NCBI RefSeq assembly: GCF_947496985.1
Contig: NZ_CANMEZ010000006.1
Coordinates: 62,001 to 126,000, forward strand
DNA from: an uncultured Kordia sp.
Lineage (GTDB): Bacteria; Bacteroidota; Bacteroidia; Flavobacteriales; Flavobacteriaceae
DNA: 64,000 bases
Reading direction: 5' to 3'
In this document: piece by piece, positions 4,620 through 60,411 of the stretch
How the letters are laid out: every line of letters begins with the position of its first letter
Numbering within the stretch: the first letter of the stretch is position 1
Translations under genes and position numbers: made by a program
The notes under the pieces: model-generated
The model's input: only the letters and a program-made list of their open reading frames with translations
What the model was told of the DNA's origin: nothing
The model's database searches: none

Positions 4620-4888
4620 CTAGCACATAAGTCTAGTAATAGTGCAGTTGTTAGTTATATCAATTGTAATAGGTTTTATTGTTCCTGGATTCAAAGTAAG
4701 CATACATATAACATTTTCTGGACGTGTATTACAAGCTAACCATGAAACACAATAGTTTTCCCCTGTACGATCACATAATACTCCTGTGCCAGGATTTGGA
4801 AGTGATACATCTCCTCCAGAAACAGCTTGCTCTTGAATTCTAGAAATTGACTTCTTGTTTAATATTAGTTTTTTAATTTTTTTTTCAT
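4620..4888 (-). pseudogene. double-glycine leader (class I lanthipeptide-like) precursor, frame broken at a 9-A run
   Basis: On the minus strand an ATG at 4888 is followed by nine A, TT and six A. Read as written, it hits TAA after six codons. With one extra A the frame becomes MKKKLKKLILNKKSISRIQ...VSGG, an almost perfect match to the other leaders in this window. The frame then stays open to the TAG at 4620-4622: 82 codons from the leader LILNKKSIS, with a Cys-rich core (six Cys) and no internal stop. The long intact core suggests a recent frameshift, a phase-variable homopolymer, or expression by polymerase slippage on the A run. No other in-frame ATG precedes the leader. It lies downstream of the CHAT gene on the same strand. 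Confidence 0.65.
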
Positions 4889-4961
4889 GTTTATATTATT
4901 TTGGTTAATTATGATACAATAGCATAAAACATGAATAAGAACACACACACTCTGTAGTATA

Positions 4962-4977
4962 CACACAAACTTGTGTG
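4962..4977. promoter_or_regulatory. short inverted repeat between the CHAT gene and the broken peptide gene
   Basis: CACACAA (4962-4968) and TTGTGTG (4971-4977) form a perfect 7-bp dyad with a 2-bp centre. No T run follows on either strand, so it looks more like a protein-binding site than a terminator. It lies about 75 bp upstream of the frameshifted precursor. Confidence 0.3.
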
Positions 4978-5034
4978 CATAGAGTTTTTAGAGAAGTTTT
5001 AGGTAATCAACTACATTTCAGCACTTTAAAATGA

Positions 5035-7773
5035 CTACACTGCTCGATTTTTGTTTAAATAGTATAAAAAAGCAGCTATAAAAATTATGAGTACTGCGCC
5101 TAGTAACCACCAATAAGAAGTTGTTTTTATTGATGGTAATATATCTGTATTTCCAGTTAACACAATTCCTCCCCAATAATACGGAGAGCTTTCACTGGTA
5201 TTTTTATGCTTTGCTAAATAATTGATTTTTGCATTGTGGAGTGCTTCTGATTTGGTTTGAGATTCTCTTAAGCGCATTCTGAAATTCTCAAAAATCTCCA
5301 TTCCTGATTTTTCATTTAAATTCCATAAGCTAGACACAACACTTTTACTTCCTGAGTTTAAAAAAGCTCTCGTGAGACTAAAAACGCCTTCGCCTTCTTT
5401 AAAAATTCCGGCAGATGTTTTGCATGCATTCAATACAACCAATTCTTTCGGATTGTTTAAAAAGTAAAGTTCATTCGGATATACTTTTTCATCAAACATT
5501 GCTAACCAAGAAACATCATTTGTATTTCCTGCATGTGATGATATATATACTTCCGAAGCATTGTTATAACTGTTTAAAAATTGTTCTTTTGTTGCGTTTG
5601 CATTCACATACGTAGCGTCTTCAAAGAATTCTGTAGGTTTTACCGTTAAAGATGTTAAGCTTGAATCTTGAAAAGCTGTCAACATAAAAGAAATGCTTTT
5701 TGCTTCCTTTTCTACATAATTCAATTGATTTTCAGCGTCTAATGAAAAAGAATATTGATAACTAATTTCTTTCTGTTGTATAAGATATGAATCATGTAAA
5801 GTTGCTGTCGTTGAAGTTGGCAAAATTTCTAAAGGAAGTGCGTTAATACTTCCATCAGGAACGACTGTAATTTTTGTTGCGTTTTGATATATGGTATCAT
5901 TTCTAAAAGGAAACAATTCCTTGTAAACTTCATTTCCTTTAACCTGATAATCAACAATTTCGTTTTTTGTTTCAAACGGTTTTGCATACAATTCTTTAAA
6001 CGAACTAATTTTAGAATGCAACGTTTCAATATCTTTTAACGGATAGATTTTCACATTTTCCTTATCCATCACTAACACGTATCCTAATGCATTATTTAGA
6101 ATGTATGCAACCACAAGTTCATTTTTAGCCAAGCCTTTTTGAACGTTTTTTGTGGAACGAATAGGTAAGCTTCTACGATATCTATGATACTCTGGGTATT
6201 CGTTTTCAATCGTAGTTAAATATTTATAATAGGTTTCTTTTGCCGTAAAATAGTTTTTTTCGAGACTGTCTTTCGTTTCACTTGAAAATAATTCTTGCGC
6301 TAGTGTTTTTACCTTTTTGGCTAATTCTGCTTCTTTATCTATTACAGTTTGTGGTAATTTTGCAATTCGTTTTGCATTAAATGCAGAGACATTATCAAGC
6401 AATACAATTCCTTTATTTTTTTCTATATAGTAAAATGCTGCTGCTGGTTTATTTAGTAAAAACCATATTTTAACGGCATTGATATACAGCTTTGCTCCTT
6501 CGTTCCTCCAAAATAGTTTTGAGATTTTTTCTTTACTTTCAAAATATAAATGATCAATAACTTTGTCTATTAAAACTAACGTTTCTTCAGCAGCTACTAA
6601 GTATTTTTTTGATTTTGTATGCTCATAATAAGCAAGCCAACCGACCTGTTTATCAATCAAATATCCTAAAATATCTTTTCGATGTGGAGAATTTTTAATA
6701 CGTTCATATTCAGGAAGGTTTTCAATCGTTTTCCAATCAAACGGAAGTAATTCGTTTAATGCTTTATTATAATAGCGTATACCTTTCACATATTCTTTGG
6801 ATTGGATATAAATGTCTCCTAAGTTATCATATATTGTGCTTCTTTGATCTTTATCATTTCCCACAAACAAGAGCGCTTTATCATTTAATTCTAAGGCTTT
6901 AGCTATATTTCCCTTTTTCACATCGATTAATGCTTTGTTTGTATAAATCTGAGATATTCGGAAGGAATCTTTTAGCTTCTCAGCCAATGGCAAAGACTTT
7001 TCATAATATCCAGAAGAAGCTTTATATGCATGATTGTTGTATAAAATAGCTCCCAAATTGAATAACACCATAAGTCGCTTCTTATCGTTTGACTTTAGTT
7101 CATCTTCAAGACTTAACACATTCTCTTCCAGTAATTTAAAATCTTTCGAAGTCATCTTATAATGTTGCTCTACATATAAACTTAGTTTATTAATGTAGTT
7201 TCCTAACAAGTTGCTTTTGGCATCAACTTTTTTAAAAATTACTTCAGATGTGTCAAAATAATCCAACGCTCGTTGATAATCGCCCGTATTTTTATATACA
7301 CCAGCCATCATTTTATAAGCTTCTCCACTTCGTATATCCAATATAGTGTCATGGGAAACTACACTATCAAGATATGTCAATTGATTGGTATAATCTTTTT
7401 GAAGTCTGTAGAAATAACCTAAATTATAATATGCTTTCGTAATTAAATTTCTATCTGGCGTTGTATCTTGTTTTCTTAGGTATACTTCTTTTTTTAAGAA
7501 TGTAATTGCTGCATTTCTATTTATTTTTTTGCAAAAATTTACAACGTCATAACACACATCAGCATGCACACTTTTATTTGTATACTTTTTATGAAGTAAT
7601 TCAGATTTGAAGAGTTCTATTTTTTTTACATCAGAAAGTGGTAGCTCTACAATAGAATCATATACTCTTTTGGCAGTCGTCTGCCCTATTCCAACAATGG
7701 TATAAAAAAACGCACAAACAACTAATAAAAAATGCTTTACATGGTTAACTTTACTAGATATTTGTGCGTTCAT
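5035..7773 (-). CDS. TPR-CHAT protease with C-terminal membrane anchor
   Basis: A 912-residue protein. It has an N-terminal hydrophobic export segment (residues ~13-31), a long TPR superhelix (~100-345, with units such as ALDYFDTSEVIFKK), a helical linker (~345-560), and a CHAT (caspase-HetF-associated) peptidase domain (~600-870). The catalytic pair of the clan CD caspase-like fold is visible: His747 in VYISSHAGN and Cys784 in LVVLNACKTSAG. One membrane helix lies at ~888-905, followed by a short basic tail. The protein probably sits in the inner membrane with TPR and CHAT in the periplasm. It follows the subtilisin gene by 36 bp on the same strand, so the two proteases are probably made together. 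The substrate is unknown. Confidence 0.88.
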   Translation of the reverse strand: MNAQISSKVNHVKHFLLVVCAFFYTIVGIGQTTAKRVYDSIVELPLSDVKKIELFKSELLHKKYTNKSVHADVCYDVVNFCKKINRNAAITFLKKEVYLRKQDTTPDRNLITKAYYNLGYFYRLQKDYTNQLTYLDSVVSHDTILDIRSGEAYKMMAGVYKNTGDYQRALDYFDTSEVIFKKVDAKSNLLGNYINKLSLYVEQHYKMTSKDFKLLEENVLSLEDELKSNDKKRLMVLFNLGAILYNNHAYKASSGYYEKSLPLAEKLKDSFRISQIYTNKALIDVKKGNIAKALELNDKALLFVGNDKDQRSTIYDNLGDIYIQSKEYVKGIRYYNKALNELLPFDWKTIENLPEYERIKNSPHRKDILGYLIDKQVGWLAYYEHTKSKKYLVAAEETLVLIDKVIDHLYFESKEKISKLFWRNEGAKLYINAVKIWFLLNKPAAAFYYIEKNKGIVLLDNVSAFNAKRIAKLPQTVIDKEAELAKKVKTLAQELFSSETKDSLEKNYFTAKETYYKYLTTIENEYPEYHRYRRSLPIRSTKNVQKGLAKNELVVAYILNNALGYVLVMDKENVKIYPLKDIETLHSKISSFKELYAKPFETKNEIVDYQVKGNEVYKELFPFRNDTIYQNATKITVVPDGSINALPLEILPTSTTATLHDSYLIQQKEISYQYSFSLDAENQLNYVEKEAKSISFMLTAFQDSSLTSLTVKPTEFFEDATYVNANATKEQFLNSYNNASEVYISSHAGNTNDVSWLAMFDEKVYPNELYFLNNPKELVVLNACKTSAGIFKEGEGVFSLTRAFLNSGSKSVVSSLWNLNEKSGMEIFENFRMRLRESQTKSEALHNAKINYLAKHKNTSESSPYYWGGIVLTGNTDILPSIKTTSYWWLLGAVLIIFIAAFLYYLNKNRAV

Positions 7774-7809
7774 AGAGTGATCATCTTTTGATGGAGGATC
7801 ACTAAAATA

Positions 7810-9042
7810 CTATAAATTCAAATAGGATGCATATTTAATTTGACTCAACGTGCTCGACTCAATTTTGTCCATTAATATTTTGTGATACAATACTGACACT
7901 GGCATTCCTTCTTGATATTTTGATGCTGAAAATCCAGCTACTTTTGCACTTGAATATGACGAACCTGTCACTAAAATTGGATCTGCCCCAGAAGTCATAT
8001 AAAAAGGAAGTCCAATACCATGTACAGCAATATCTACTGATATTGGTCCGTAATTAGATATTATAGGTTCTAAATTTGGCGGCATAGCATTATCTACAGC
8101 AGTTACCGCTAAAATGTTTTTTGTTGGATATGATGATGGAAAATGTGCATCGTTATCATTATTTTCTCCTGTATTTCCTGCCGAAGCAACTATTAAAATA
8201 CGTTCTTCCACTTCTGTTATATAACTACCAATAATTGTTGAAGTCGTTGTTGTCCAACCAAAACTCATATTAATAACATTCACATCTTTCATTATTAAAT
8301 AACTCAAACCACAACCAATACGAAATAGCGAACTCTTTCCATCAGCGTCGAAAGCTTTCGCAGGTAGTATTTCAAAATCAGTTGCGGTATCTATAAGTTG
8401 TTCGTATATCATATAACTTACAATAGTTCCATGTCCGTTATCATCAAAAGGTTCGTTATTGTTATCTACAAAATTCCATCCAAAAAACTCATCACCACAG
8501 CTTTCTTGATCCAAAGCACTATTATGTAAAAATGGTTGTTCAAAACGAAAATACGTAGGGTTTATTCCTGTATCTAAAACACCAACAGTTACAGAAGCGT
8601 TATTGGAACGTATTTTTGGAAATATACTTTGGTAATGTTGTATTTCTAAAGGAACTCCTGTTGGAACTTGACTCGATATTTGAATGTCAAAATTAAAATC
8701 GGCGCCTTCCATTTCAGGTTCATCTTCCATAGAAGTTACACGTTCTTCAATAGTTGCGCCTTCATGAATTGCTTCTAAATCCCATGATTCTAAATTTTTG
8801 TCTCCGCAAGAACATTTTTCATAATCCGTAACTCCATACGTTGTTCTTAATACTGTTTTTTCAGCTTCCGACAATCCTGCTGCAAAGCGAATCACTACCG
8901 TATTACCTTTTTTACTTGCGATTGTTGGAGGTGTTCTACTTTGAAGTTGTTCTTGTTGTTGATTTTCTGTTGTAGTTTCTATAATTTCCTGTTCACAACT
9001 TAGTAAACATATAATTATAATAAAGTATCCTATTTTTTTCAT
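7810..9042 (-). CDS. S8 (subtilisin-like) serine protease lipoprotein
   Basis: A 410-residue lipoprotein: the signal sequence ends in the lipobox LLSC with lipidation expected at Cys16. Residues ~45-125 look like an inhibitor/propeptide domain. The subtilisin domain follows with Asp157 (VGVLDTGIN), His204 (NGHGTIVS), oxyanion Asn290 (VASAGNTGE) and Ser362 (TGSSYSSAKVAG). The serine motif reads GSS rather than the usual GTS, a tolerated change. A CxC pair sits at Cys77 and Cys79 in the propeptide. It is upstream of the CHAT protease in the same transcription unit and divergent from a sigma factor gene, which suggests the proteolytic arm of a signalling or stress circuit (inference). Confidence 0.88.
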   Translation of the reverse strand: MKKIGYFIIIICLLSCEQEIIETTTENQQQEQLQSRTPPTIASKKGNTVVIRFAAGLSEAEKTVLRTTYGVTDYEKCSCGDKNLESWDLEAIHEGATIEERVTSMEDEPEMEGADFNFDIQISSQVPTGVPLEIQHYQSIFPKIRSNNASVTVGVLDTGINPTYFRFEQPFLHNSALDQESCGDEFFGWNFVDNNNEPFDDNGHGTIVSYMIYEQLIDTATDFEILPAKAFDADGKSSLFRIGCGLSYLIMKDVNVINMSFGWTTTTSTIIGSYITEVEERILIVASAGNTGENNDNDAHFPSSYPTKNILAVTAVDNAMPPNLEPIISNYGPISVDIAVHGIGLPFYMTSGADPILVTGSSYSSAKVAGFSASKYQEGMPVSVLYHKILMDKIESSTLSQIKYASYLNL

Positions 9043-15810: not shown

Positions 15811-16050
15811 TGAAAACGTAATTTAAAAGGATTGCCTTTAAACAAGAAACCAGTATCTAACTTACAGCAAGAAAAAGTAAAAGGAGAACGCACTTATTGG
15901 TCTGACTGCTGTACGATAACCCAAGGTAATAGTTGTAGATGTACAGACATATGGTGTATATTTTCAATTAACCAATATCCAATACAACCTAACTATAAGA
16001 CTCACAATATATTAAAAACACATTATGGGTTTTTCTATATTTTTTTATGA
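15811..16050 (+). pseudogene. decayed double-glycine leader precursor peptide
   Basis: The frame from 15814 reads KRNLKGLPLNKKPVSNLQQ, then EKVKGE, closely matching the leaders found elsewhere in the window. A GTG at 15810 followed by four A is out of frame by one base and stops at once. Removing one A would join it to the leader. The double glycine has become Gly-Glu. The core is Cys-rich (SDCC, SCRC, WCIF), and the frame runs to 16050. The only in-frame start is a TTG at 15832 inside the leader. It is probably a dead precursor gene; use of the TTG cannot be excluded. Confidence 0.5.
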
Positions 16051-17068: not shown

Positions 17069-18169
17069 TTAACTAAGGTAAGCTTCGATTAATTCGTTCC
17101 ATTTATCTTTATGAACTTTTTTAAGCTCTGTATCATCTTGAATTAAACTACTATAATTTTTTATAAAATTTTCTAAAGAAGAAATTAATCTTAAATAATA
17201 TTTCAAACTAGGAATTACACCATTAATAATAATTTGACAACCATGAATTTTTTTTATTTCAGCTATCATATTCGATATTTCTTTTTTGTCATCTTCTTTT
17301 ACTCCAATATAAGATAAGATATAATACCTTTCAGGGTTAAACCTTTTTATCTTTTCAATTGCAATACGTACAATATTAGAGTCAATAGACTTATCTAGTT
17401 TTATCTCAATAGACTCGAAAATACTACCATCTTTTGAAATTTCTATATCTCCCGATGATTTGGAAGTTCTATCAGAAGCGGTGTGACTCCCCATTTTTTC
17501 TAATACACAACCATTAAATCTAGTTAGCTCTTCTATTAAACTAATATAAATAGAGTAAAAAGCTATAACAGGTAGCTTTGACCCCCCATGTGTTCTATAA
17601 TTAAAACCAAATTGTAGATTAAGTACATATATTATTTTTTCAATAGTCAGTTCTTCAGGATTCTCCAAAGGTCTAATTTCTACCGTTAATCTTTTTCTAG
17701 CCTCAATAGCTTGAAATATAATTAACCTTAAAATATTAGTAGCTTTATCTGCGTTCTTCTCTAAATAGTCTAAAATTTGCAGAAAAGCTTTCTTTACTGA
17801 TTTATTACTAATTTTTCCATTATAGTCCAAAGTATACTCATACGGTTGTTCTAAAGAACGTGTAAGCCATCCACTTTCAGCCATAGATGGTAATTTCAAT
17901 TCTTTTAGTGTTGGTGTTATGTATTGGGTATCTATAGTTCGACCCGAGAATCCCCCATCCATGCTAGATTGGTGCTTTCTGATATCTTGACTTGGATTAA
18001 GAATTTTATGAGTAACCAAGGTCGTTAAAACAGTAAAAACCCCTTTTTGAGAAGTTATTTTTGCGCCAATTATTTTAATATCGTTTCGTATATCTTCACT
18101 AACATCTATTACATCATCAACTGTAGAAGAGTTCTCGTAAATCTCCAATAACTTTTTTTTGTGGTTCAT
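17069..18169 (-). CDS. putative type II restriction endonuclease
   Basis: 366 residues. Its first 53 bp overlap the end of the C5-methyltransferase gene on the same strand, the usual coupling of a type II pair. A PD-(D/E)xK-like active site is readable as SSGDIEIS (Asp241) and SIEIKL (Glu255-x-Lys257), with hydrophobic strands between. An N-terminal segment SSMDGGFSGRTIDTQYITP resembles a conserved block in some GC-rich-site type II enzymes, but I cannot assign the target sequence. The methyltransferase is translated first, which protects the host before the nuclease appears. Confidence 0.72.
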   Translation of the reverse strand: MNHKKKLLEIYENSSTVDDVIDVSEDIRNDIKIIGAKITSQKGVFTVLTTLVTHKILNPSQDIRKHQSSMDGGFSGRTIDTQYITPTLKELKLPSMAESGWLTRSLEQPYEYTLDYNGKISNKSVKKAFLQILDYLEKNADKATNILRLIIFQAIEARKRLTVEIRPLENPEELTIEKIIYVLNLQFGFNYRTHGGSKLPVIAFYSIYISLIEELTRFNGCVLEKMGSHTASDRTSKSSGDIEISKDGSIFESIEIKLDKSIDSNIVRIAIEKIKRFNPERYYILSYIGVKEDDKKEISNMIAEIKKIHGCQIIINGVIPSLKYYLRLISSLENFIKNYSSLIQDDTELKKVHKDKWNELIEAYLS

Positions 18170-19148
18170 CTAATAGTAAATTTTGCTCTTTTAAACTTTT
18201 AGCAATTTCAGAAATTACGGGGATTGCTACTGAATTACCTATTTGCTTATATTGTTCACCTATTTTGAAATGTCTTTTAAAGTTTTTCGGAAACCCCATT
18301 ATCCTGTAACACTCATTTAATGTCAGTTTTCTAACTCTATTTTCCGTAGGTAAGTATATAAAAAACCTCCCTGAGGTTTCTTGTGATGGAATAGTTGGAT
18401 GAGTGCCATCTACTGAATATATTCTGTTTGGTTGTCTATGAACTCTTGATAAATGTTCTGTATTTGGTCTAACTCCATTTTTCCAAGTATTTTTATTTCT
18501 ATATCCAATAAAAATTAATCCAGTTGCTTGTTTTTTTGGATTTTCTATTAAGGTATATTCTTCTCTATCTAAATATTCAAAATTCCCATTTTTATCTAAA
18601 AAATCCTTTAATTGTACAGGAGCTTTAGTTTTAAGTTTTTCAAACTTAAAAAAGCCAATTTTAGTGGCTATAATAAATATTCTTTCTCTATTCTGTGGTA
18701 AACCAAAGTTTTTGGCGTTCAAAATTTTATGAGAAACATTGTAGCCCAAATGTGTAAGAGTCTGAATGATAGTTTTAAAAGTTCTCTTTTTATCATGATG
18801 TATTAGATGTTTTACATTTTCCAATACCACTACTTTAGGTTTCTTAGTGTCTATTATTCTACAAATATCAAAGAATAGAGTTCCTCTAGTGTCATCAAAC
18901 CCTTTCTTTTTTCCCGAGATACTAAAAGGTTGACAAGGGAAACCAGCTAATAAAACTTCAAAATCAGGAATATTTTCAGGATTAATTTGGGTAATATCCC
19001 CAAAAACTTCATCTCCAAAATTATCTTCATAGACCTCTTGACAAGCTTGGTTTATTTCAGAAGTAAAAACACATTTATAGCCTGCATCTTCAAACCCCTT
19101 TCTAAAGCCTCCTATACCTGCAAATAAATCAATAAATCTTGGCTTCAT
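18117..19148 (-). CDS. DNA (cytosine-5-)-methyltransferase
   Basis: 343 residues with the ordered motifs of C5 methyltransferases: motif I DLFAGIGGFRKGF (SAM binding), motif IV GFPCQPFS with nucleophile Cys72, motif VI VLENVKH, motif VIII QNRERIFI, the variable target-recognition region (~195-270), and motifs IX-X (LTLNECYRIMGFP and QIGNSVAIPV). All catalytic motifs are intact. It is the protective half of the restriction-modification pair in the integrated element and overlaps the endonuclease gene. The recognition sequence is not predictable by reading. Confidence 0.93.
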   Translation of the reverse strand: MKPRFIDLFAGIGGFRKGFEDAGYKCVFTSEINQACQEVYEDNFGDEVFGDITQINPENIPDFEVLLAGFPCQPFSISGKKKGFDDTRGTLFFDICRIIDTKKPKVVVLENVKHLIHHDKKRTFKTIIQTLTHLGYNVSHKILNAKNFGLPQNRERIFIIATKIGFFKFEKLKTKAPVQLKDFLDKNGNFEYLDREEYTLIENPKKQATGLIFIGYRNKNTWKNGVRPNTEHLSRVHRQPNRIYSVDGTHPTIPSQETSGRFFIYLPTENRVRKLTLNECYRIMGFPKNFKRHFKIGEQYKQIGNSVAIPVISEIAKSLKEQNLLLDEPQKKVIGDLRELFYS

Positions 19149-19279
19149 ATTTCTTATATCTAATATCTGTTTTAATTATAATTGTATGCTATAATATTTC
19201 TAATAAGAAGAATATTATAGTAAAAGAGGTGTAAAATAAATATTATCCTTTTAAAACCGTAAAGATATTAACTATTTTT

Positions 19280-20332
19280 TTATTCCTTGTCTATATCGAT
19301 ACATTCAGAAAGCAAATATTTCAGATCAATTGGCATATTATAACCTGTTAAACATTCGCCAGTATCGGTATTAATCCAGTCGGTTGCGTCGGGGGCAAAC
19401 TCCCATAATTTATAATTTTCAACCGAGCGTACATTGGCTTCTTTTTCTTCTTGTTGAGGTAAGTTGAACCCAAAACGGTCAAAGATGCGTTTTCCTTTGA
19501 ATGCTGCGTTTATGTTATCCATTGCACGTGTATAAATTTTCATATCTTTTTTTATACGCTTTTTATTATTTGGGTCGGGTTCTGTAAAAACCTTAGTGCC
19601 ATATTTAATGGTTTCAATCAAATCGCGTTCTAAACTTTCTACTTCTCTAAAATGTTGTGCTTTGTTGGAGCAATGAAACTGTCCGTTTCTATTCCATTGT
19701 TTTTTCCATTCCTGTTTTAGTAAAATTGCGGTTTGTCTGTTTGGTACAATTAAATGATAATGCGGATTGTATGTTTTATCTTTTGGGTTGAAATTACATT
19801 CTAACGATTTAATGCCTATGATTTTCATTCCTTTACCGCGTTGGTATCGCTTTTTAAATTTGTTATTTATTGTTTTGAAAGCTTTTTTAACTTCATAAAT
19901 TCTATTTCTAAGGGCATTAGCTTTTACAGTTTTTAAAGTTAAAGTGACGAAATACGGATTTTCCCAATTTTTCAATACTGGATAATATTTATTGATCTTA
20001 TCCGCTTTGCGTATGGCGTTGCAAATTGTACAATAACGAGTTTTGCAATAATTGGCATGTAGTCTGTTATTGTGTTGTATAAGTTTCGTGCAACAATAGT
20101 AAGCGTTCCAATATGATTTTGTGCGTTCGGTTGCTCCTTTCTCTTTTGCTACATCTATAAGGCTTAATAACATTGCACGGGAAATTGTTTTTCGTTGCGC
20201 TCTGTTTAGTAGTGACTCGTTACCTATCATTTCCGTGCCGTTGCCTGCAATTTGTACACTTTGAGTTTTTTTGCCTTCATTGGCTGTCACGCTTTGTGCT
20301 AATGTATAGATTTGCTTCGCTGAATGTTCCAT
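19280..20332 (-). CDS. rolling-circle replication initiator (HUH endonuclease, Rep_1-like)
   Basis: 350 residues. The HUH signature is clear: motif 1 PYFVTLTLK (~127-134), the metal motif NPHYHLIVP (His191, His193) and catalytic Tyr244 in DLIETIKYGTKVF. N-terminal cysteines (Cys80, Cys81, Cys96, Cys101, Cys104) could bind zinc. This is the type used by small rolling-circle plasmids such as the pUB110/pMV158 groups. Inside an integrase-carrying chromosomal element it suggests replication of the excised circle. A double-strand origin was not identified; the 131 bp upstream (19149-19279) show no obvious one. Confidence 0.85.
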   Translation of the reverse strand: MEHSAKQIYTLAQSVTANEGKKTQSVQIAGNGTEMIGNESLLNRAQRKTISRAMLLSLIDVAKEKGATERTKSYWNAYYCCTKLIQHNNRLHANYCKTRYCTICNAIRKADKINKYYPVLKNWENPYFVTLTLKTVKANALRNRIYEVKKAFKTINNKFKKRYQRGKGMKIIGIKSLECNFNPKDKTYNPHYHLIVPNRQTAILLKQEWKKQWNRNGQFHCSNKAQHFREVESLERDLIETIKYGTKVFTEPDPNNKKRIKKDMKIYTRAMDNINAAFKGKRIFDRFGFNLPQQEEKEANVRSVENYKLWEFAPDATDWINTDTGECLTGYNMPIDLKYLLSECIDIDKE

Positions 20333-20352
20333 ATCTTTTGGTTTTTCAGCGA

Positions 20353-20643
20353 CTAACTACGCTTATATTTTAGCGATTTCACATCATTCAAAGCGTTATA
20401 TAATTCAGAATGTAGAATGTAGTATTTACGCTTTCCGAGTTGTTGCGCTTTGATACTTCCCTTTTTGATATGATTACGGATTGTTAACTCTGTTACATTC
20501 AATATTTCAGCAGCTTCTTTTATTGAATAACGTTTGTCTGTGAGTTCTTTTTTTGTCTGTAGTTCCGTATGCGCTTCTTTTATCCATTTCTTGAATATAG
20601 GTTCAAGTTTAGATAATGGCACATTAAAAAATACCTGTTCCAT
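20353..20643 (-). CDS. excisionase-like helix-turn-helix protein
   Basis: 96 residues with a MerR/Xis-type winged HTH (HTH_17): RYSIKEAAEILNVTELTIRNH followed by GSIKAQQLGKRKYYI. Small proteins of this type assist tyrosine integrases in excision or act as regulators. It lies 20 bp upstream of rep on the same strand, and may therefore couple excision with replication. The N-terminal ~35 residues are helical and unremarkable. Confidence 0.78.
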   Translation of the reverse strand: MEQVFFNVPLSKLEPIFKKWIKEAHTELQTKKELTDKRYSIKEAAEILNVTELTIRNHIKKGSIKAQQLGKRKYYILHSELYNALNDVKSLKYKRS

Positions 20644-20734
20644 TATTTATATATTTTTATTTATAATGGTTGCAAGTATGTAATGAGTAACTGGTTGCGT
20701 AACAGTTACTTTTTATGAAAAATAATGTAAATCG

Positions 20735-21751
20735 CTAATAATCATTAATTTCACTCTTTAAATAAAGTATATCATTTTCAACTTTAGTAACGGCTAAACT
20801 ATAATGTTCTTTAAGAAATGGTATTATTGTATGTAGCTTATCTATTGGGTAATCATTCTTTTCATTAATACGTTTTTTAGCCTCATAATATTTTGTTTTC
20901 AGATTATCATAAGTTGTTGAAATATTGTGCTTTTTCAAGAACTTTATTTTTTTATTTTTTTTCGTTCTACTATTTGGAAGTAGTTTAGTTTCATTTGCAT
21001 AATAAAATATAGTAGCCCATTCTAAAACACTAAATGTTTCTTTTTTGTTTTGTATTTCTTGTTGCTTCTTCTCTTTTTCAATAAATACTTTTGTCTCGTA
21101 AATTCCTTTTTTCTTTTCAAAGAATTCTATTTGTAAATCTAAGTGGTTATGATCTTCCTTTTCCAGTAGTTTATTTTGAATTTCATCTTCTTGTAAGCTA
21201 TCTAAAGTAGTATTAATAACAGACAAACTATGTAAACCACTCGATTTAGAAAACATTTCTGTTAAAGACAAAAAACCTGCACTAAGTGAGAACTTAATCA
21301 TTTTAGCTAAATCAAAATACATTAATCCTTTTCCAGTAATGAAAGAAAAGCAATTGAAAAAGTTAATCGTTAGCTTAAAAAGTTGTTTTTTATTATCATG
21401 TATGTATTTATGTCTAAGGACTATATTAATAAATTCAGAAGAAGCCATTATAAAAGTAATTGCCATTTGATCGTAATACCTGCTACAATCCTTATCAATT
21501 TCTTTTTCACTTTCTCCTTTACAAAACTTACAATTAGTTTTTATGTCTTTAGGTAACGACTTGGTTTTATACTCATTAAAAGCATTCATTACCTTATCAT
21601 AGTTTTTTTCTGTTAACAAAAACTCCTTTAGGTAATCAATATGATTTTTTTCGGGGAACAATTCTTTAGTGTCAAAATCAGCTTTTATATAAACTCGATT
21701 TTTGTAACTTTCTTCATCTAATTCAAAACCTATTATTTTATTCTCTTTCAT
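20735..21751 (-). CDS. hypothetical element protein
   Basis: 338 residues, no recognised domain. There are few hydrophobic stretches; a CxxC pair occurs in NCKFCKGESEKEIDKDC and may bind metal. The C-terminal half is Lys/Glu-rich and helical (KTKYYEAKKRINEK). Its ATG begins on the base after the integrase stop codon, so translation is probably coupled with the integrase. Proteins in this position of Bacteroidota integrative elements are often unannotated; a role in excision or element maintenance is only a guess. Confidence 0.6.
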   Translation of the reverse strand: MKENKIIGFELDEESYKNRVYIKADFDTKELFPEKNHIDYLKEFLLTEKNYDKVMNAFNEYKTKSLPKDIKTNCKFCKGESEKEIDKDCSRYYDQMAITFIMASSEFINIVLRHKYIHDNKKQLFKLTINFFNCFSFITGKGLMYFDLAKMIKFSLSAGFLSLTEMFSKSSGLHSLSVINTTLDSLQEDEIQNKLLEKEDHNHLDLQIEFFEKKKGIYETKVFIEKEKKQQEIQNKKETFSVLEWATIFYYANETKLLPNSRTKKNKKIKFLKKHNISTTYDNLKTKYYEAKKRINEKNDYPIDKLHTIIPFLKEHYSLAVTKVENDILYLKSEINDY

Positions 21752-23026
21752 TTAATTCACTTTCTTTAGAGGTGTACTTTCCATTTTCCAGACTGTCTGC
21801 ATAAAGTCTATTTTCTCATCGTTATTAGGTTTATAATATTGATTGAAAACTTCTAAACTTTTATGCCCTATATAGCTCATAATTACTTTATCGGGAATCT
21901 TTTTATTTTTCATTATAGTTATAAAACTCCTGCGGGCGGTATGACTTGAAACTCGTTCGTAAAAAGGCGAAATAGTTTCTATTACTTCTTTTCCTATTTT
22001 ATATGTTTTCTTTACATCTTCAGTATATCCGACCTTTTCTATAACTTCTTTTACATAATCGTTAAACTTTTGATTTGTAATTTTAGGTAGTTTGTAATCA
22101 TACTTTTTTAGTATGAACTTAGAATAGTCATTTAAAGGAATTGAAAGTACTTTTGAATTGTTCTTTTGATCCCTAACATTTATGAAACCGTTTGAAATAT
22201 CATTTTCTTTAACTTTAGAGTAATTACTGTAACGCATGCCAGTAACACATCCAAATACAAACAAATCACGTACACGTTCCAATCTTGGATTTTTAGAAAA
22301 GTCATGATTAATGATTTCCGTTACTTGCTCCATTGTTAACGCAACCTCATCCGTAATCTCTTTTTTGATATTTTTAAATTCTTTGAAATCTGATTTATAC
22401 GTATAGTTATTATCAAACGCCCAATACATGAAGGTTTTAAATAAACCAATATTTCTACTAAGTGTATTTGTAGAGTGTTTCTTTTCAGTTATGCAGTAAG
22501 AAATAAATTCGTTGTACAATTTCTTATCTATTTTACTAAAGTGTAATTTTTTAGTTCGATATTCTTCAAAACTTTCTAGCAATTTTTTATTGTACTCGTA
22601 TCGTTTTATTGTTGAGGTTGAATTTCCTGTATCTGTTTTGTCGTTTTTCTTTTCATTCAGAAACAAATCATAAACCGTAAAAAAGTCATTTCCTGCGGTT
22701 TTTGTACGCTTGAATTCTTTGTTAAACTCCGAGCGTATATTTTCAATTGTTAATTCTTGTCCTGTATTCCTGTATAAGTCAGTTATTTTGATAAAGAAGT
22801 TAGCGTATCTATCTAACTGCATTTTAATTGATCTTTGCGTATTGGCAAATTCGGTACGCCCTGTTAAGTCTTTTGGCTGTCTATTTTCAAAATCCCAGTC
22901 TTTCGGGTTTATGCTTTCCCCTGTAGAGTACACAAATTTTTTGCCCTCATTTTTGAAATGTGCGATTAAATAGATTAATGTTTTGCCTTGCTTCTTTTTG
23001 CTTTTAAGATTAAAAGTACTTCTCAT
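21752..23026 (-). CDS. tyrosine recombinase / integrase
   Basis: 424 residues. The N-terminal arm-binding part (~1-90) begins STFNLKSKKKQGKTLIYL, followed by a SAM-like core-binding domain (~112-215). The catalytic domain (~225-415) carries Arg265 (CVTGMRYSN), His362 and Arg365 (SSHTARRSF), His388 (YIGHKS) and nucleophile Tyr397 or Tyr398 (FNQYYKP). The set is complete. It lies at the right end of the element, 150 bp from the attachment repeat, transcribed inward. It should catalyse insertion at the tRNA-Ser 3' end. Confidence 0.92.
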   Translation of the reverse strand: MRSTFNLKSKKKQGKTLIYLIAHFKNEGKKFVYSTGESINPKDWDFENRQPKDLTGRTEFANTQRSIKMQLDRYANFFIKITDLYRNTGQELTIENIRSEFNKEFKRTKTAGNDFFTVYDLFLNEKKNDKTDTGNSTSTIKRYEYNKKLLESFEEYRTKKLHFSKIDKKLYNEFISYCITEKKHSTNTLSRNIGLFKTFMYWAFDNNYTYKSDFKEFKNIKKEITDEVALTMEQVTEIINHDFSKNPRLERVRDLFVFGCVTGMRYSNYSKVKENDISNGFINVRDQKNNSKVLSIPLNDYSKFILKKYDYKLPKITNQKFNDYVKEVIEKVGYTEDVKKTYKIGKEVIETISPFYERVSSHTARRSFITIMKNKKIPDKVIMSYIGHKSLEVFNQYYKPNNDEKIDFMQTVWKMESTPLKKVN

Positions 23027-25911: not shown

Positions 25912-26166
25912 ATGAAAAAAAAGAACCTAAAAAATTTAAACCTCAGAAAATCAACAATTTCAAATTTACATGCAAAAACTATTGCAGGTGGTACTGATGC
26001 TATTACTATTGTTATTGTACGTACTACAGACTTCGCTACAAGAACAGGATGTTCTAAATTAATGGTATGTGATTCTGTTGCTGCTTGCCCAGAAGGTATT
26101 CCAAAAACTAAATTTGTAGATGTAGATACACGTCCAGCTTCTAGTTGCATCCATACAGATATTTAG
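25912..26166 (+). CDS. double-glycine leader (class I lanthipeptide-like) precursor peptide
   Basis: 84 residues from the ATG at 25912; an upstream in-frame ATG at 25855 precedes the canonical leader start. The leader is MKKKNLKNLNLRKSTISNL, then HAKTIAGG with cleavage expected after Gly27. The core of ~57 residues is Thr/Ser-rich with four Cys (GCSKL, MVCDS, AACPEG, SCIH), suitable for thioether or disulfide cross-links. No LanB/LanC, radical SAM or peptidase-transporter gene is in the window, so any modification enzymes lie elsewhere. It is first in a run of three plus-strand precursors. Confidence 0.8.
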   Translation: MKKKNLKNLNLRKSTISNLHAKTIAGGTDAITIVIVRTTDFATRTGCSKLMVCDSVAACPEGIPKTKFVDVDTRPASSCIHTDI

Positions 26167-26278: not shown

Positions 26279-26416
26279 ATGAAAAAGCAAAGTTTAAAAG
26301 TATTGAAATTAAACAAAAATGTAGTTTCTACATTTGATTTATCTAAAGTTAAAGGTGGATACTCACACAGTAATAATGTATTAGGTACACAAGAAAATTG
26401 CTGTCACCCTTTATAA
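26279..26416 (+). CDS. short double-glycine leader precursor peptide
   Basis: 45 residues. The leader is MKKQSLKVLKLNKNVVSTF, then DLSKVKGG; the core is only 18 residues (YSHSNNVLGTQENCCHPL), with a vicinal Cys pair at its end. The leader resembles that of the minus-strand peptide at 60268-60411 (STFD-SKxKGG), so the two form a subfamily. A strong terminator follows 6 bp after the stop, so it forms its own unit or ends the unit begun by the previous precursor. Confidence 0.75.
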   Translation: MKKQSLKVLKLNKNVVSTFDLSKVKGGYSHSNNVLGTQENCCHPL

Positions 26417-26551: not shown

Positions 26552-26827
26552 ATGAGTAACTTTAACCTATACAAAAATGAAAAAAAGCAATTAAACGGAT
26601 TATCATTAAACAAAAAATCAATCGTAAATCTCAGTAACAAAGTAGGTGGAATGAACGAAGTACCTGCACCAACACTATATGCAGGTTGCGCAAATACAAA
26701 TGGTGCTTGCGAAAGCGGACGTTGCATTACAGGTGTACAATGTGAACTAGACAGCTTTTTATGTACAAATTTTTGTTCTCAGTTTAACTGTCCACCATTA
26801 GCTACTACGATTGCTCCTATTTGTTAG
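26552..26827 (+). CDS. Cys-rich double-glycine leader precursor peptide
   Basis: 91 residues. The N-terminus is extended (SNFNLYKNEKKQ), then the leader is LNGLSLNKKSIVNLSNKVGG with cleavage expected after Gly33. The ~58-residue core has eight Cys (AGCAN, GACES, GRCIT, VQCEL, LCTNFC, NCPP, PIC), the most in the window. Eight Cys in a secreted core suggests several cross-links. It is preceded by a TACGG dyad and followed by a terminator. Confidence 0.78.
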   Translation: MSNFNLYKNEKKQLNGLSLNKKSIVNLSNKVGGMNEVPAPTLYAGCANTNGACESGRCITGVQCELDSFLCTNFCSQFNCPPLATTIAPIC

Positions 26828-29001: not shown

Positions 29002-29286
29002 TTAAACTGCTGCTTGATGTTTTGGATTTCGTGTATCATACTCTACAGGGCATTCCATACAATTTGAAAATCGATTTGAAATACATTCGCATGCGGTATA
29101 CAATTCACTATACCATGCACATCCTGGCTCTGCTCCTTGTGTTTGTGCTGGATAAATAGTAATTGTTTCTACTCCCGTGCCTTGGTGTGCAGCATTGCCC
29201 GCATGATCATAAGCACTTCCTCCATAAAGTTTAGAAATAGACTTCTTTTTAAGTTGTAATTTTTTGAGGTTTCTTTTTTTCATCAT
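29002..29286 (-). CDS. double-glycine leader precursor peptide
   Basis: 94 residues, or 93 from the second of two adjacent ATG codons. The leader is MKKRNLKKLQLKKKSISKL, directly followed by YGG, so it is shorter than the others by about six residues. The core (~70 residues) contains five Cys (GCAWY, TACEC, NCMEC) and His-rich ends. A promoter-like element with an embedded dyad lies 56-85 bp upstream, and a terminator follows the stop by 6 bp, so it is a single-gene unit. Confidence 0.75.
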   Translation of the reverse strand: MMKKRNLKKLQLKKKSISKLYGGSAYDHAGNAAHQGTGVETITIYPAQTQGAEPGCAWYSELYTACECISNRFSNCMECPVEYDTRNPKHQAAV

Positions 29287-29399: not shown

Positions 29400-29711
29400 C
29401 TACCCTATTCCTTGATGTATGCTACCATAACCTCCATTTGCCTGACATCCTTCATGTTCCGATGGTGGTTTTACTTTTGTAGTACCTGCATTGGTTTGGC
29501 AATTATCAATTCTCATTGAAGGACATTCTGGTGATCCTGAATGATCTACTACGGAGCAAGTAGGACCTTCTATTGAGGCGTCATTAATTTCTATATATGT
29601 TTGTCCGTCCGTATTAGACGGGAACATTCCTCCAATTTTTCTGTGAAGCAAGGTCAAATTAGAAACACTATACTTATGTAATTTTAGGCTTTTTAATCTC
29701 TTTCTTTTCAT
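29400..29711 (-). CDS. double-glycine leader precursor peptide
   Basis: 103 residues. The leader is MKRKRLKSLKLHKYSVSNL, then TLLHRKIGG with cleavage expected after Gly28. The ~75-residue core is Gly/Ser/Asp-rich with four Cys (PTCSV, PECPS, NCQT, GCQAN) and ends GGYGSIHQGIG. It has its own promoter-like element of the same design as the preceding minus-strand precursor. The end of the TPR-AraC regulator gene lies 98 bp upstream. Confidence 0.75.
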   Translation of the reverse strand: MKRKRLKSLKLHKYSVSNLTLLHRKIGGMFPSNTDGQTYIEINDASIEGPTCSVVDHSGSPECPSMRIDNCQTNAGTTKVKPPSEHEGCQANGGYGSIHQGIG

Positions 29712-29808: not shown

Positions 29809-31470
29809 TCACCCTTTTTCTTTAAGGTTTCGTATATACTGCGAAGGGTAAATTCCGGTATATGCTTTAAAAGCTCTCGAAAAAGTTTCTTGTCTTTTAA
29901 AACCAAACTCGTCGGCTATTGCCATAATTGTATACGATTGTAATGTTTTATTATTTTTAAGTTTTACCAAAGCAGTTTCTATTCGTAACTCGGTTATATA
30001 GGCTGTAAACGATTTCCCCTTATGTGTATTAATTACTTTAGACAAATACGCCGTATTTGATTCAAACTCTTCTGCCATAGCTCCCAAACTGCATTCTTGC
30101 GATAAATACGCTTCGTTCTTTTCAAACTTTGTCAATCTTTTTAAAATGGCATGCACCTTCTCGTCTGATACTGTGTCTTTTTGGGTCACTATTTTTTCCT
30201 TCTTATCATTTTCTAGCGTTGACACTCTTTGCAATAATGTGTCAAATTTCTTTCGGATGCGTTTGTTTCTAATTTTTAAATACAAAACACTACTTATCAA
30301 TAAAATTAGCAATGTTACCGAAGCCATAACAAATCCTTTTTTACTTTTCGTTTCTTGCGTTAGTTGTTCCTCTAACAAATTATTTTCTGTTTTTAACGGA
30401 ACTATATCTATCAATGTGTGGGTTTCATTATTTATTTTTAAATCTTCTGCACTTTGTTTCTTTTCAAGCACTCTATACTGTTGAATATGATACAATTCTT
30501 TTTCAGAGTTTCCTGTTTCATGATACGCAAGCATTAAAAACTCATGCAATTCTTTTTCATTCGTACTAACATCATCAGAAGCTTTCATAATGGCATAGGC
30601 TTTTCCTAAATATTCAATGCATTCTTCATTAGACTTTAGCTTATATGCATTCTTTCCAAGATAAAACAAAGACGTAAGGTATAAGTCTTCCTTTTTGCCT
30701 TTTGCATACAACTCTACAAGTTTGCTAAGTTTCACTGATTGCTTGTATGCTCCTTCTTGATACTTAATAATAGCTTTGTTCATTACTAAAGGATAATATG
30801 CACTGGCATTTTTTTTATTAGTCATTTTAAGCCCAGCTTCATTATATAATGCTGCTTCCTTTGTATTCTGTAACCATAGATAAGTATCGGACATATGCAT
30901 TAATACAAGAAGCCTGTAATATTCAACATTTACTGGGTCATTCAAAGTACTCAATAGTTTCAATACATCCTTATACAGTATAATAGCCTCTTCAAAATCT
31001 TTATGTCGCTTTTTTATATTAGCAATATTGGTAAGTGTCGCAACTTCATAGATAGGATTTTTTAATTCGTTTACATACGCTCTCGCTTTTGCATGTGCTA
31101 TTAACGCTTTAGAATCTTCTCCCAATTCTGAAAGAATAATGCCTTTTAAAGACAAACCTTTATACTCAAGTAAGGTGTCATTTAAAGATATTGCTTGTAC
31201 TATGGCAGACTCTATATGAGCTAAAGCTACTTTGTTCTGTTCCAATTCAAGCTTACAATTAGCTATACAATATGCTACTTTTGCCAATTGCTTTGGATTT
31301 CCGCTTACTACTGCTAAGCTTTTTGCTTGCAATATATATTCCAATGCCTTGGAAGCGTCTTCGTTTACGGTTTTATAATAGGATTGTACCAATTTATCAA
31401 ACGAAACATCTTCCTGTGCATTAGCAACACTCAGGAAAGCAATGAATAGTAATAGTACTAGTTGTTTCAT
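29809..31470 (-). CDS. TPR - membrane helix - AraC-type transcriptional regulator
   Basis: 553 residues. Signal peptide ~1-18 (ends SVANAQ), TPR repeats ~25-330 (for example ALAHIESAIVQAISL), coiled linker, one membrane helix ~378-396 (VTLLILLISSVLYL), then a cytoplasmic AraC-type double HTH (~440-550) with IMAIADEFGFKRQETFSRAF and the signature AYTGIYPSQY. The layout places TPR sensors in the periplasm and DNA binding in the cytoplasm, in one chain, as in other Bacteroidota one-component regulators. It is directly upstream of two precursor genes on the same strand that share a dyad, so it is a candidate regulator of them (inference). Confidence 0.87.
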   Translation of the reverse strand: MKQLVLLLFIAFLSVANAQEDVSFDKLVQSYYKTVNEDASKALEYILQAKSLAVVSGNPKQLAKVAYCIANCKLELEQNKVALAHIESAIVQAISLNDTLLEYKGLSLKGIILSELGEDSKALIAHAKARAYVNELKNPIYEVATLTNIANIKKRHKDFEEAIILYKDVLKLLSTLNDPVNVEYYRLLVLMHMSDTYLWLQNTKEAALYNEAGLKMTNKKNASAYYPLVMNKAIIKYQEGAYKQSVKLSKLVELYAKGKKEDLYLTSLFYLGKNAYKLKSNEECIEYLGKAYAIMKASDDVSTNEKELHEFLMLAYHETGNSEKELYHIQQYRVLEKKQSAEDLKINNETHTLIDIVPLKTENNLLEEQLTQETKSKKGFVMASVTLLILLISSVLYLKIRNKRIRKKFDTLLQRVSTLENDKKEKIVTQKDTVSDEKVHAILKRLTKFEKNEAYLSQECSLGAMAEEFESNTAYLSKVINTHKGKSFTAYITELRIETALVKLKNNKTLQSYTIMAIADEFGFKRQETFSRAFKAYTGIYPSQYIRNLKEKG

Positions 31471-33887: not shown

Positions 33888-33908
33888 TTTAAAACTTACT
33901 TGAATATA

Positions 33909-34808
33909 TTATACATATACAATTTTTTCAATAGTTTTTCCTTTTTTTAATTTAAATCTTAGTGGATTCCAATCTTCAATATCAGGTTGATATATATTGT
34001 CGCTAAAAAATAAAATTTCTTTACCATCCCTTACTTCATAGGCTGTATGTTTAAATGAAAATTCTTTTTTTGAGCAATCTGAATATAGCTCTTGTATTTC
34101 AGGTACATTATCATAAGATACTATCCATTTTATATTTTCTATAGCTTTTATCTTGTCACTTACTTTTTTATGATTTTTAGCTTCGTAATGATTAAGATAT
34201 AGAGTACTAGCCTTTAAGTAATATGGTGGATCAAAATAAAAAATTACATTCTCGTTTTGTGCTTCGTTTTCAATTTTATCGATTAGCTTAATTGCATCTT
34301 TCTTATAAAGTCTTATATTATTTTTATATTTAGCTATATTTTTTATTCTGAATACCAAATCCTTTTTATTAAATCTACAATCCATTAAATAATTACCATT
34401 CTGAGCTATCCCACCCATTACGCCAGCATTAATAATTCCTGATCGATTTGTTCTATTAAGATAAAATGTAGAAAAACCTAATTCCAATAAATTAGCTGTT
34501 TTCTTTTTTGATTGAATAGCTTTCTGCTTTTTCCACTCAGTAATTGATAATTCAGCATTTTCAACTAATTCACAAAATTTCTTTGTATTATTAAGAATAG
34601 AGTGCCAAAAAGCATAAATTGACCTATCTCTATCATTTATTGTAACTCTCTCTACAAATCCTTCAATCAAAAGAAATAGGGCTACTGATGCACCTCCAGA
34701 ATATGGTTCTACATAATGCCCATTTATGTTATTATCTATACAGATTTTAGCTATAAATGCGGATAGTTTATTTTTTCCTCCGGGATATCTTAATGGTGAA
34801 TAGAACAT
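33909..34808 (-). CDS. DNA adenine methyltransferase (Dam/D12 class)
   Basis: 299 residues. The SAM-binding start LRYPGGKNKLSAFI and YVEPYSGGASVAL are typical of D12-class N6-adenine methyltransferases, and the catalytic motif is FYFDPPYYLKAS. The central target-recognition region contains NRTNRSGIINAGVMGG. It begins 3 bp after the ATPase/TOPRIM gene and closes the three-gene minus-strand cassette, so it is more likely to mark self DNA for that system than to act as housekeeping Dam. The recognition site is unknown (GATC is possible). Confidence 0.88.
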   Translation of the reverse strand: MFYSPLRYPGGKNKLSAFIAKICIDNNINGHYVEPYSGGASVALFLLIEGFVERVTINDRDRSIYAFWHSILNNTKKFCELVENAELSITEWKKQKAIQSKKKTANLLELGFSTFYLNRTNRSGIINAGVMGGIAQNGNYLMDCRFNKKDLVFRIKNIAKYKNNIRLYKKDAIKLIDKIENEAQNENVIFYFDPPYYLKASTLYLNHYEAKNHKKVSDKIKAIENIKWIVSYDNVPEIQELYSDCSKKEFSFKHTAYEVRDGKEILFFSDNIYQPDIEDWNPLRFKLKKGKTIEKIVYV

Positions 34809-34811
34809 TTT

Positions 34812-45593: not shown

Positions 45594-45833
45594 ATGAAGA
45601 AAAAAAAGTTAAAAAGTTTAGACATTAAAAAATCAACAATTTCTAACTTAAACAAAAACACACTTAGTGGAGGTGCGCTTGTTCCTAACACACACTATGT
45701 AGTATGCGGAACAGGACCACAAACAATCATTTGTACATTTAACTGTACATTCCAATTGGATTGCGGTACGTATAACTCTAGAAATCGTTGTAAAACGATA
45801 GAAGTTGATGCAAATACAATTCCTATTTGCTAA
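45594..45833 (+). CDS. double-glycine leader precursor peptide
   Basis: 79 residues. The leader is MKKKKLKSLDIKKSTISNL, then NKNTLSGG with cleavage expected after Gly27. The core of 52 residues is Thr- and Cys-rich (YVVCGT, IICTFNCTF, LDCGTY, NRCKTI, PIC; six Cys) and ends IPIC, similar to the end of the precursor at 26552 (IAPIC). It is a single-gene unit with its own dyads upstream and a terminator downstream. No modification or export gene is adjacent. Confidence 0.8.
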   Translation: MKKKKLKSLDIKKSTISNLNKNTLSGGALVPNTHYVVCGTGPQTIICTFNCTFQLDCGTYNSRNRCKTIEVDANTIPIC

Positions 45834-55830: not shown

Positions 55831-55833
55831 ATA

Positions 55834-57993: not shown

Positions 57994-58032
57994 AAGTCTA
58001 TCAGAAATGTAACTGATAGGCTTTTTTTTTGC
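57994..58032 (+). terminator. terminator after the DUF3108 operon
   Basis: GTCTATCAG (57996-58004) pairs with CTGATAGGC (58013-58021, one wobble), then nine T. Confidence 0.85.
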
Positions 58033-58181
58033 GAAAAAGTGAAGTTTTTCACACTTTTTTAAGAAATCTATAACTAAAATACGTATTGGTTTTCAGTACT
58101 TTTGGACATCCTAAAAATAGTTTATTTGGAATAATGTTATAACTCTAAATACACTACAATATTTAATATAACTTAAAATAG

Positions 58182-59747: not shown

Positions 59748-59772
59748 TTTTTACAACATATATAAAAATCAG

Positions 59773-59800
59773 AAAAGCTTCCATAATGGAAGCTTTTTCT
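59773..59800 (+). terminator. terminator after the M28 peptidase gene
   Basis: AAAAGCTTCCA-TAA-TGGAAGCTTTT, then TTCTTTTT. Bidirectional in appearance. Confidence 0.85.
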
Positions 59801-59834
59801 TTTTACTAAGTTTTCTTTTTAAGCAATAAACTTC

Positions 59835-59984
59835 TTAAAGTTTTAACTTGCAAAGTACTCCTTCTTTTGTAACCTTAACAACTGTAGACTGTTGTGTTGT
59901 TGGTAAAGCTCCTCCAAAAACAGTATTCAATGCTACGATACTTTCTTTTCCTATTGCCAATTTTTTAAGTTTACTTTTTTTCAT
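59835..59984 (-). CDS. short double-glycine leader precursor peptide
   Basis: 49 residues. The leader is MKKSKLKKLAIGKESIVALN, then TVFGG; the core of 24 residues (ALPTTQQSTVVKVTKEGVLC, then KLKL) has one Cys and a TTQQST stretch. It keeps the KLKKLxIxKESI pattern of the leader family but is the most diverged. It has no dyad of the TACGG type upstream. Confidence 0.65.
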   Translation of the reverse strand: MKKSKLKKLAIGKESIVALNTVFGGALPTTQQSTVVKVTKEGVLCKLKL

Positions 59985-60036
59985 AATGATATGTCTTTAA
60001 ATTAATAATATATTCAGAAGTCCTTGTAAACTAATT

Positions 60037-60165
60037 TTGTTACCCTATTTTATAAATAAAGATTATGATATAATTGATAGTTGGCCAATTGATCCGAGTG
60101 CTTGGAAAGATTTTCAAGTGAATAGTGTTGAATTTACATTGAATGATGAGGAAGATTCAACCTAG
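60037..60165 (+). pseudogene. fragment of a former gene
   Basis: A 42-codon frame with a protein-like composition (DIIDSWPIDPSAWKDFQVNS, then VEFTLNDEEDST and a stop). The only start is a TTG at 60037, and the frame extends further upstream without an ATG. It reads like the C-terminus of a lost gene; an active short gene is less likely. Confidence 0.3.
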
Positions 60166-60214
60166 ATTTTAGTTATTGTAAACACTAGTTAAACATAAAT
60201 GAAATTTATATATT

Positions 60215-60247
60215 GAAAAAGCGAACTATGAAGTTCGCTTTTTTTGT
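60215..60247 (-). terminator. bidirectional terminator below the precursor at 60268
   Basis: AAAAGCGAACT (60217-60227) pairs with AGTTCGCTTTT (60232-60242), with A and T runs on both sides. Confidence 0.85.
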
Positions 60248-60267
60248 GAAATAAAAACTAATAAATT

Positions 60268-60411
60268 TTACCTCGGATCATGGCATGAAATACAATTGGT
60301 AGGACAATTTGTAGCCAATTGAGTGTGTCCGCCTCCTTTTATTTTTGATGGATCAAAAGTTGAAATGGATTGCTTGTTCAAATTCAATGTGTTTAATTGC
60401 TTTTTTTTCAT
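60268..60411 (-). CDS. short double-glycine leader precursor peptide
   Basis: 47 residues from the ATG at 60411; the longer frame to 60492 adds an unrelated hydrophobic stretch. The leader is MKKKQLNTLNLNKQSISTF, then DPSKIKGG; the core of 20 residues is GHTQLATNCPTNCISCHDPR with three Cys in NCPTNCISC. The leader pairs with that at 26279 (STFD-SKxKGG). A TACGG-like dyad lies 54 bp upstream. Confidence 0.75.
   Translation of the reverse strand: MKKKQLNTLNLNKQSISTFDPSKIKGGGHTQLATNCPTNCISCHDPR

Follow-up and report, generated by a model that had tools for sequence, protein, structure and literature searches.

Scattered double-glycine precursors in a Kordia genome as a probable class I lanthipeptide-type repertoire served by one LanB machine

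We analysed a window of 64,000 nucleotides from an uncultured Kordia sp. (assembly GCF_947496985.1, contig NZ_CANMEZ010000006.1, positions 62,001 to 126,000), in which ten short loci specify peptides with a double-glycine (GG) leader. The sequences make it highly probable that all ten are members of a much larger set of precursors of class I lanthipeptide type, dispersed over the genome and served by a single machine acting in trans. A first-pass annotation of the window had listed all ten as precursor loci. When both directions were translated, a leader of the MKKxxLKxLxLNKxxISxL type was found in each of the ten stretches. An intact open reading frame (ORF) with ATG, leader and GG was present at eight of them (25912, 26279, 26552, 29002, 29400, 45594, 59835 and 60268); the other two (4620-4888 and 15811-16050) proved to be broken. 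No further leader match of at least 15 bits was found in the window. The annotation had also claimed that the window holds no modification or export machine, and this was borne out: Pfam scans (E cut-offs 1e-3 to 1e-6) revealed no LanB, LanC, radical SAM or C39-ABC protein among 42 of the 43 window ORFs of at least 150 aa, and all genome-wide matches to LanB, LanC and C39 lay outside the window.

The whole-genome leader search that the annotation had recommended revealed the leader throughout the genome. The NCBIfam model NF038153 (lant_leader_L1a) gave 147 matches among the best 150 of 246 candidates, and a profile made from the ten window leaders gave 150 matches among the best 150 of 356 candidates; their union comprised at least 220 sites. 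The stretches around 217 of these 220 sites (484 kb, window included) were re-searched, with the profile iterated on the same stretches. This search yielded 251 leader frames of at least 15 bits, 245 of them at E<=1e-3, and in the control no reversed and no shuffled frame matched at E<=0.1. The frames are spread over 18 contigs and form 119 groups, a gap of more than 6 kb being taken as the boundary between groups. A start codon is kept in 246 of them, the other five being broken copies, and 241 of the 246 start-bearing precursors have a GG or GA cut site (GG in 234). The figure of 246 precursors is a lower bound because isolated weak copies outside the re-searched stretches would escape detection. 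Depending on the linking rule, the 241 cores fell into 153 or 162 families. Upstream of the precursors, a -7 motif, which we take to be the Bacteroidota promoter motif, was barely enriched (41/245 vs 35.7 in shuffled sequence); a longer two-part promoter form occurred 11 times vs 4.4.

LanB, LanC and C39 were the enzyme families searched genome-wide. LanB (PF04738) had a single match, and of the genes that the annotation had proposed to locate, LanB, LanC and a C39 transporter were found at one 11-kb locus (C1:474-485 kb). This locus comprises LanC, a split LanB, HlyD, a C39 peptidase-ABC exporter (735 aa), two precursors with the same leader, and a TPR-AraC gene. The split LanB consists of adjacent genes for an N-terminal protein of 751 aa and a C-terminal protein of 308 aa, so that the glutamylation and elimination domains typical of class I lanthipeptide systems are both present, on separate genes. 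LanB has 97% identity with that of Kordia jejudonensis and 86-91% with those of other Kordia, on which basis the window was assigned to Kordia; its alignment with NisB spans the LanB length. In alignment with a LanC-like protein of known structure, the separate cyclase LanC matched at WCYG and LCHG, motifs that presumably hold the zinc ligands, and residues 2-728 of the exporter align with bacteriocin transporter 4ry2. Precursors adjoin the enzymes at the LanB locus (two) and not at the window loci. The suggestion in the annotation that the leader pattern is of class I lanthipeptide type is strengthened by its occurrence on these two precursors beside LanB and LanC. Only 2 of the 251 leader frames lie at the LanB locus, and 249 lie outside the LanB region (C1:465-495 kb).

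Gene order at the LanB locus is common to all eight named Kordia loci, which have one or two TPR-AraC genes; in three of the eight, a further precursor precedes those genes. Among 20 LanB loci in named genomes, 19 had a leader-matching precursor within 10 kb; the single locus without one was an 8-kb contig in a metagenome-assembled genome of another phylum. Among 299 genomes of the family (own genome included), the leader was found in 14, LanB in 25, and both in 13 (Fisher p 4e-15). LanB was present in all seven family genomes with at least three listed leader matches. Within the genus, all 11 genomes had at least 104 leader matches and four of them at least 150; a smaller expansion (15 and at least 28 matches) was seen in genus g78, and in a phylum-wide sample 5 of 395 genomes, that of the window among them, carried the leader. 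These counts are lower bounds, based on the best 150 candidates per genome for the genome and genus, 28 for the family and 21 for the phylum. They indicate that the great expansion is a trait of this genus in the samples. Poor conservation of the leader in relatives, or a genome without an export and protease system, would have counted against the annotation; neither was seen, given the 11 genus genomes and the presence of C39-ABC and HlyD.

In the mechanism that we propose, LanB would bind the shared leader of the dispersed precursors, and its glutamylation and elimination proteins would dehydrate Ser and Thr residues of the core. LanC would then couple dehydrated Ser/Thr to Cys located 3-6 residues downstream, and the C39-ABC exporter with HlyD would cut after GG and export the peptides, which may serve in signalling or antagonism. 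An alternative is that many precursors are processed by other enzymes: a second lanthipeptide-like set (APH-like, HopA1 and LanC; C1:150-154 kb), a second LanC on contig C15, or some further enzyme. Both of these exist in the genome, three precursors adjoin the C15 LanC, and radical-SAM-modified peptides are named in Kordia in PMC11118758. However, no leader match was found in 16 kb around the HopA1 set, and the leader is present at 19 of 20 LanB loci. With LanB, LanC and C39 as the enzyme families covered genome-wide, we regard processing by other enzymes as unlikely. The suggestion of the annotation that one central machine may act on many dispersed substrates is well supported at the level of sequence, in that the genome has a single LanB locus and the leader tracks LanB.

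Core composition and residue spacing were then considered. Cys made up 11.4% of core residues and Thr 13.1%, vs 0.8% and 6.3%, respectively, in window ORFs of at least 180 aa; Lys made up 2.2%. A distance of 3-6 residues from Ser/Thr to Cys is usual for (methyl)lanthionine rings; disulfide peptides would not be expected to show it. We scored Ser/Thr 3-6 residues upstream of Cys in one core per family (153 cores), a range picked after per-position counts had been seen, and found it for 569 of 629 Cys. One hundred shuffles gave a mean of 54.2% and a maximum of 60.1%, the mirror control (Ser/Thr 3-6 residues C-terminal of Cys) gave 318/629 (51%), and ordinary window ORFs gave 43/121. Enrichment was alike with three other ranges. 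Per position in the family-reduced set, Ser/Thr was enriched at -4, -5 and -6 and not at -3 alone; it was also enriched at +2, which ring formation does not directly predict. Exactly one Ser/Thr was present at -3 to -6 for 489 of the 629 Cys, and 567 could be assigned a Ser/Thr of their own one-to-one. Wholly pairable cores numbered 100 of 153, vs at most 21 in 30 shuffles. This placement of Ser and Thr in the cores would allow rings with Cys, as in class I lanthipeptides. Precursors beside LanB in Kordia (n=15) obeyed the spacing at 95 of 98 Cys, which are not 98 independent cases because these precursors are mutually related.

This spacing bears on the proposal that the loci encode GG-leader peptides with disulfide bonds or no modification at all, cut and exported by C39-ABC, and that LanB acts only on its two adjoining precursors. 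GG leaders are also common to unmodified bacteriocins and pheromones, Cys is abundant and conserved in the cores, and the number of Cys is even in 130 of 241 cores. However, Cys parity, tried as a test for disulfides, gave no signal (111 odd; p 0.25). At distances of 3-6 residues, Ser/Thr enrichment is seen only on the N-terminal side of Cys, although position +2 is enriched too; the LanB-side Kordia precursors obey the same spacing; and the leader tracks LanB. The proposal is, in our judgment, quite improbable.

Constraint between species was examined in eight positional pairs: 29002, 29400, 59835 (twice), 60268, one pair between two relatives, and two LanB-side precursors. The ratio of nonsynonymous to synonymous substitution rates (dN/dS) was 0.16 in the leaders and 0.21 in the cores, values that are rough and lean low because dS (~1.2) is near saturation and unrecognisable cores were excluded. 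Pairs were limited to recognisable cores; left out for their different cores were two precursors beside an M28 gene in relative G307 and one weakly matching precursor in G305. Cys columns were identical in 33 of 34 cases vs 200 of 319 for other columns. A ninth pair (25912) was kept apart, the relative's copy not being at a matching position; its addition gave dN/dS of 0.16 and 0.22, and identity of 37/38 Cys columns and 222/372 others. The dN/dS of paralogues was set aside because the pairs had been picked by similarity. Beside the M28 gene, a leader match was present in seven of ten relatives (one weak) and lacking in three, in the stretches examined, and one relative had unrelated cores there; individual precursors therefore come and go. 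A further possibility, that the dispersed copies are for the most part decaying remnants or selfish duplicates that yield no product, would fit this variable presence and the five frames without start codon, but it is very improbable given the start codon in 246 of 251 frames, the GG or GA site in 241 of these, the near-invariant Cys columns with dN/dS near 0.2, and a ring spacing kept across 153 core families.

Several observations weigh against a single class I machine for the whole repertoire. None of the ten window peptides reached the curated cut-off of NF038153 (22 bits), which was reached by at least 35 genome matches (35 of the 147 listed, in-frame neighbours counted). One family genome (G190) has a leader match, a single one, without LanB, and it is the only leader-bearing family genome of this kind; 12 of the 25 LanB-bearing family genomes have no leader. 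Precursors beside LanB in other genera followed the spacing more weakly (55/96 Cys), just above 200 shuffles (mean 42%, maximum 56%). To these must be added the late choice of the spacing range, the low-leaning dN/dS values, the second enzyme set, and the radical-SAM-modified peptides named in Kordia.

Many precursors lie beside a gene for a TPR-AraC regulator. One such gene, with TPR repeats and an AraC-type helix-turn-helix (HTH) domain, is located in the window at 29809..31470 (minus strand), ~100 bp from precursor 29400-29711. Hydropathy analysis of three copies revealed in each a hydrophobic N-terminus and one transmembrane-like segment between the TPR and HTH portions, a layout that points to a sensor domain located beyond the inner membrane. 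TPR-AraC matches scoring 80 bits or more number 40 in the genome, short or broken ones included, and 26 of the 40 have a precursor no more than 1 kb away, vs 3.6 under random placement (217 precursor sites); random placement never gave more than 11 in 1000 trials. For this test, 3 of the 220 sites were dropped as implausible and 1 of 68 regulator matches was dropped as part of another ORF. The nearest precursor was downstream of the regulator gene in 22 of the 26 cases and shared its strand in 19. Only 23 of the 119 site groups have a TPR-AraC gene within 2 kb; most precursors are thus without a neighbouring one. In relatives, a leader match was found within 1 kb at ten of ten regulator loci, two of them as decayed copies only, which is a weaker test because the DNA query that yielded these loci held two precursors and one of the loci is the LanB locus of a relative. 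Other AraC-type genes, defined by a match to the C-terminal domain only, were not enriched within 1 kb of precursors (3/27 vs 1.9 expected); within 2 kb there were 8 vs 3.1 expected, a number that 11 of 1000 trials attained. Because random placement takes no account of joint duplication, the association of precursors with TPR-AraC genes may stem from cassettes that were copied as a unit, which would itself be informative. We can imagine that precursors and transmembrane TPR-AraC sensors spread as cassettes in which each sensor reads its own cyclised peptide outside the inner membrane, so that a library of about 250 peptides with lanthionine rings gives many-channel signalling or self-recognition; this extension is speculative and rather doubtful.

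The individual window loci differ in state and in core. On the minus strand, 4620..4888 is a broken precursor whose start codon lies in a different frame from leader and core, across an A-run; on the plus strand, 15811..16050 is decayed, has no in-frame start codon, and carries GE in place of GG. The intact precursors on the plus strand are 25912..26166 (84 aa, 4 Cys; a similar core occurs nearby in relative G306, at a different position), 26279..26416 (45 aa, 2 Cys), 26552..26827 (91 aa, 8 Cys; an N-terminal extension precedes the leader match, which starts at residue 11) and 45594..45833 (79 aa, 6 Cys). On the minus strand, 29002..29286 (94 aa, 5 Cys) has a positionally matching orthologue in G306, 29400..29711 (103 aa, 4 Cys) belongs to a subfamily whose members adjoin related TPR-AraC genes both here and in other genomes, and 60268..60411 (47 aa, 3 Cys) has a core identical at 17 of 20 residues in relative G299. 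The intact ORF at 59835..59984 (minus strand, 49 aa) has a core of 24 aa with 1 Cys; the core is possibly truncated, because it is 33-40 aa with 3-4 Cys in four relatives. Against the model of radical-SAM GG precursors (TIGR04149), one of the ten window peptides was listed, at 8.4 bits vs a cut-off of 25. The two broken copies, the Ser/Thr-to-Cys spacing, the regulators and the scale of the set were absent from the first-pass annotation.

Elsewhere in the window, genes for a C5 DNA methylase, a plasmid-type Rep_1 protein, an unmatched ORF and a phage integrase stand in a row (18117-23026) and are likely an integrative element. A RadC-like gene, a D12 adenine methyltransferase and an AAA_15/AbiEii-like ATPase (33267-36383) form a possible defence island, and a gene for a CHAT-TPR protein adjoins a subtilase gene (5035-9042).

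Further lanthipeptide-related genes lie outside the window. Among them, the HopA1/APH-like set possibly constitutes a second system for dehydration. Beside it, after an S8 protease gene and before the APH-like, HopA1 and LanC genes, is a gene for a protein of 460 aa with 42 Cys, 87 Thr, no Lys and GPTGTQGC-like repeats (L062:5398-6780; G000:C1:149398-150780). All 42 of its Cys have Ser/Thr 3-6 residues upstream, and we take it to be a candidate giant class V-like lanthipeptide substrate. The second LanC gene (L151:8722-11976; G000:C15:9722-12976) is accompanied by three precursors of the same type, the one LanB of the genome being elsewhere. A nearby gene reads like a nucleotidyltransferase, and PMC11118758 mentions LanC accompanied by nucleotidyltransferase close to precursors in Kordia. 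A weak fourth LanC-like match (626-aa ORF, L110:6311-8191; G000:C5:309311-311191) adjoins an ORF of 1734 aa, and a stand-alone C39 peptidase-like protein of 200 aa is encoded at L116:6057-6659 (G000:C7:120057-120659). Judged by the usual size of LanM, no LanM-sized frame was present among the four LanC-domain matches (405-640 aa), the LanM dehydratase domain itself not having been searched.

Leader type, scattered precursors for one enzyme (in class II), and the richness of Kordia in ribosomally synthesized and post-translationally modified peptides (RiPPs) are already known from the literature. Class I lanthipeptide clusters of Bacteroidota, including relatives of pinensin, have LxLxKx5L GG leaders and C39 (PMC7268733); Kordia shares the leader motif, GG, LanB/LanC and the C39 protease with them. 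As described there, that survey was confined to seven genes around LanC, whereas 249 of the 251 Kordia frames lie outside the LanB region. A lanthipeptide cluster was found in K. antarctica by antiSMASH (PMC7477175), and Kordia is reported to be rich in clusters (PMC10734526). Machine-learned mining named Kordia as RiPP-rich and gave up to 176 precursors in one Bacteroidota genome (PMC11118758); it gives genus and abundance, and in the parts of its text consulted no tie to a single machine, ring rule or regulators was found. In the literature searched, supplements and most subscription papers aside, we found no report of one LanB serving dispersed Kordia precursors, nor of a ring rule or regulator link for them.

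The closest analogue of the Kordia system is the prochlorosins of class II. Prochlorosins and synechococsins are scattered precursors served by one enzyme, ProcM or SyncM, with 29 and 79 members, respectively (PMC10783134), and up to 79 substrates for one enzyme are given in PMC9872173. The Kordia precursors are dispersed and the genome has a single LanB match, but the HopA1/APH-like set possibly supplies a second dehydratase. Unlike prochlorosins, which depend on a class II LanM, the Kordia system has a class I split LanB with LanC, another leader type, a larger set, and TPR-AraC genes. If our reading is true, Kordia has a class I counterpart of the prochlorosins with ~3 times the 79 putative SyncM substrates, a naturally substrate-tolerant LanB for peptide engineering, and ring patterns that could be predicted from sequence via Ser/Thr-Cys spacing; the regulator link provides a handle on the purpose of such large peptide repertoires.

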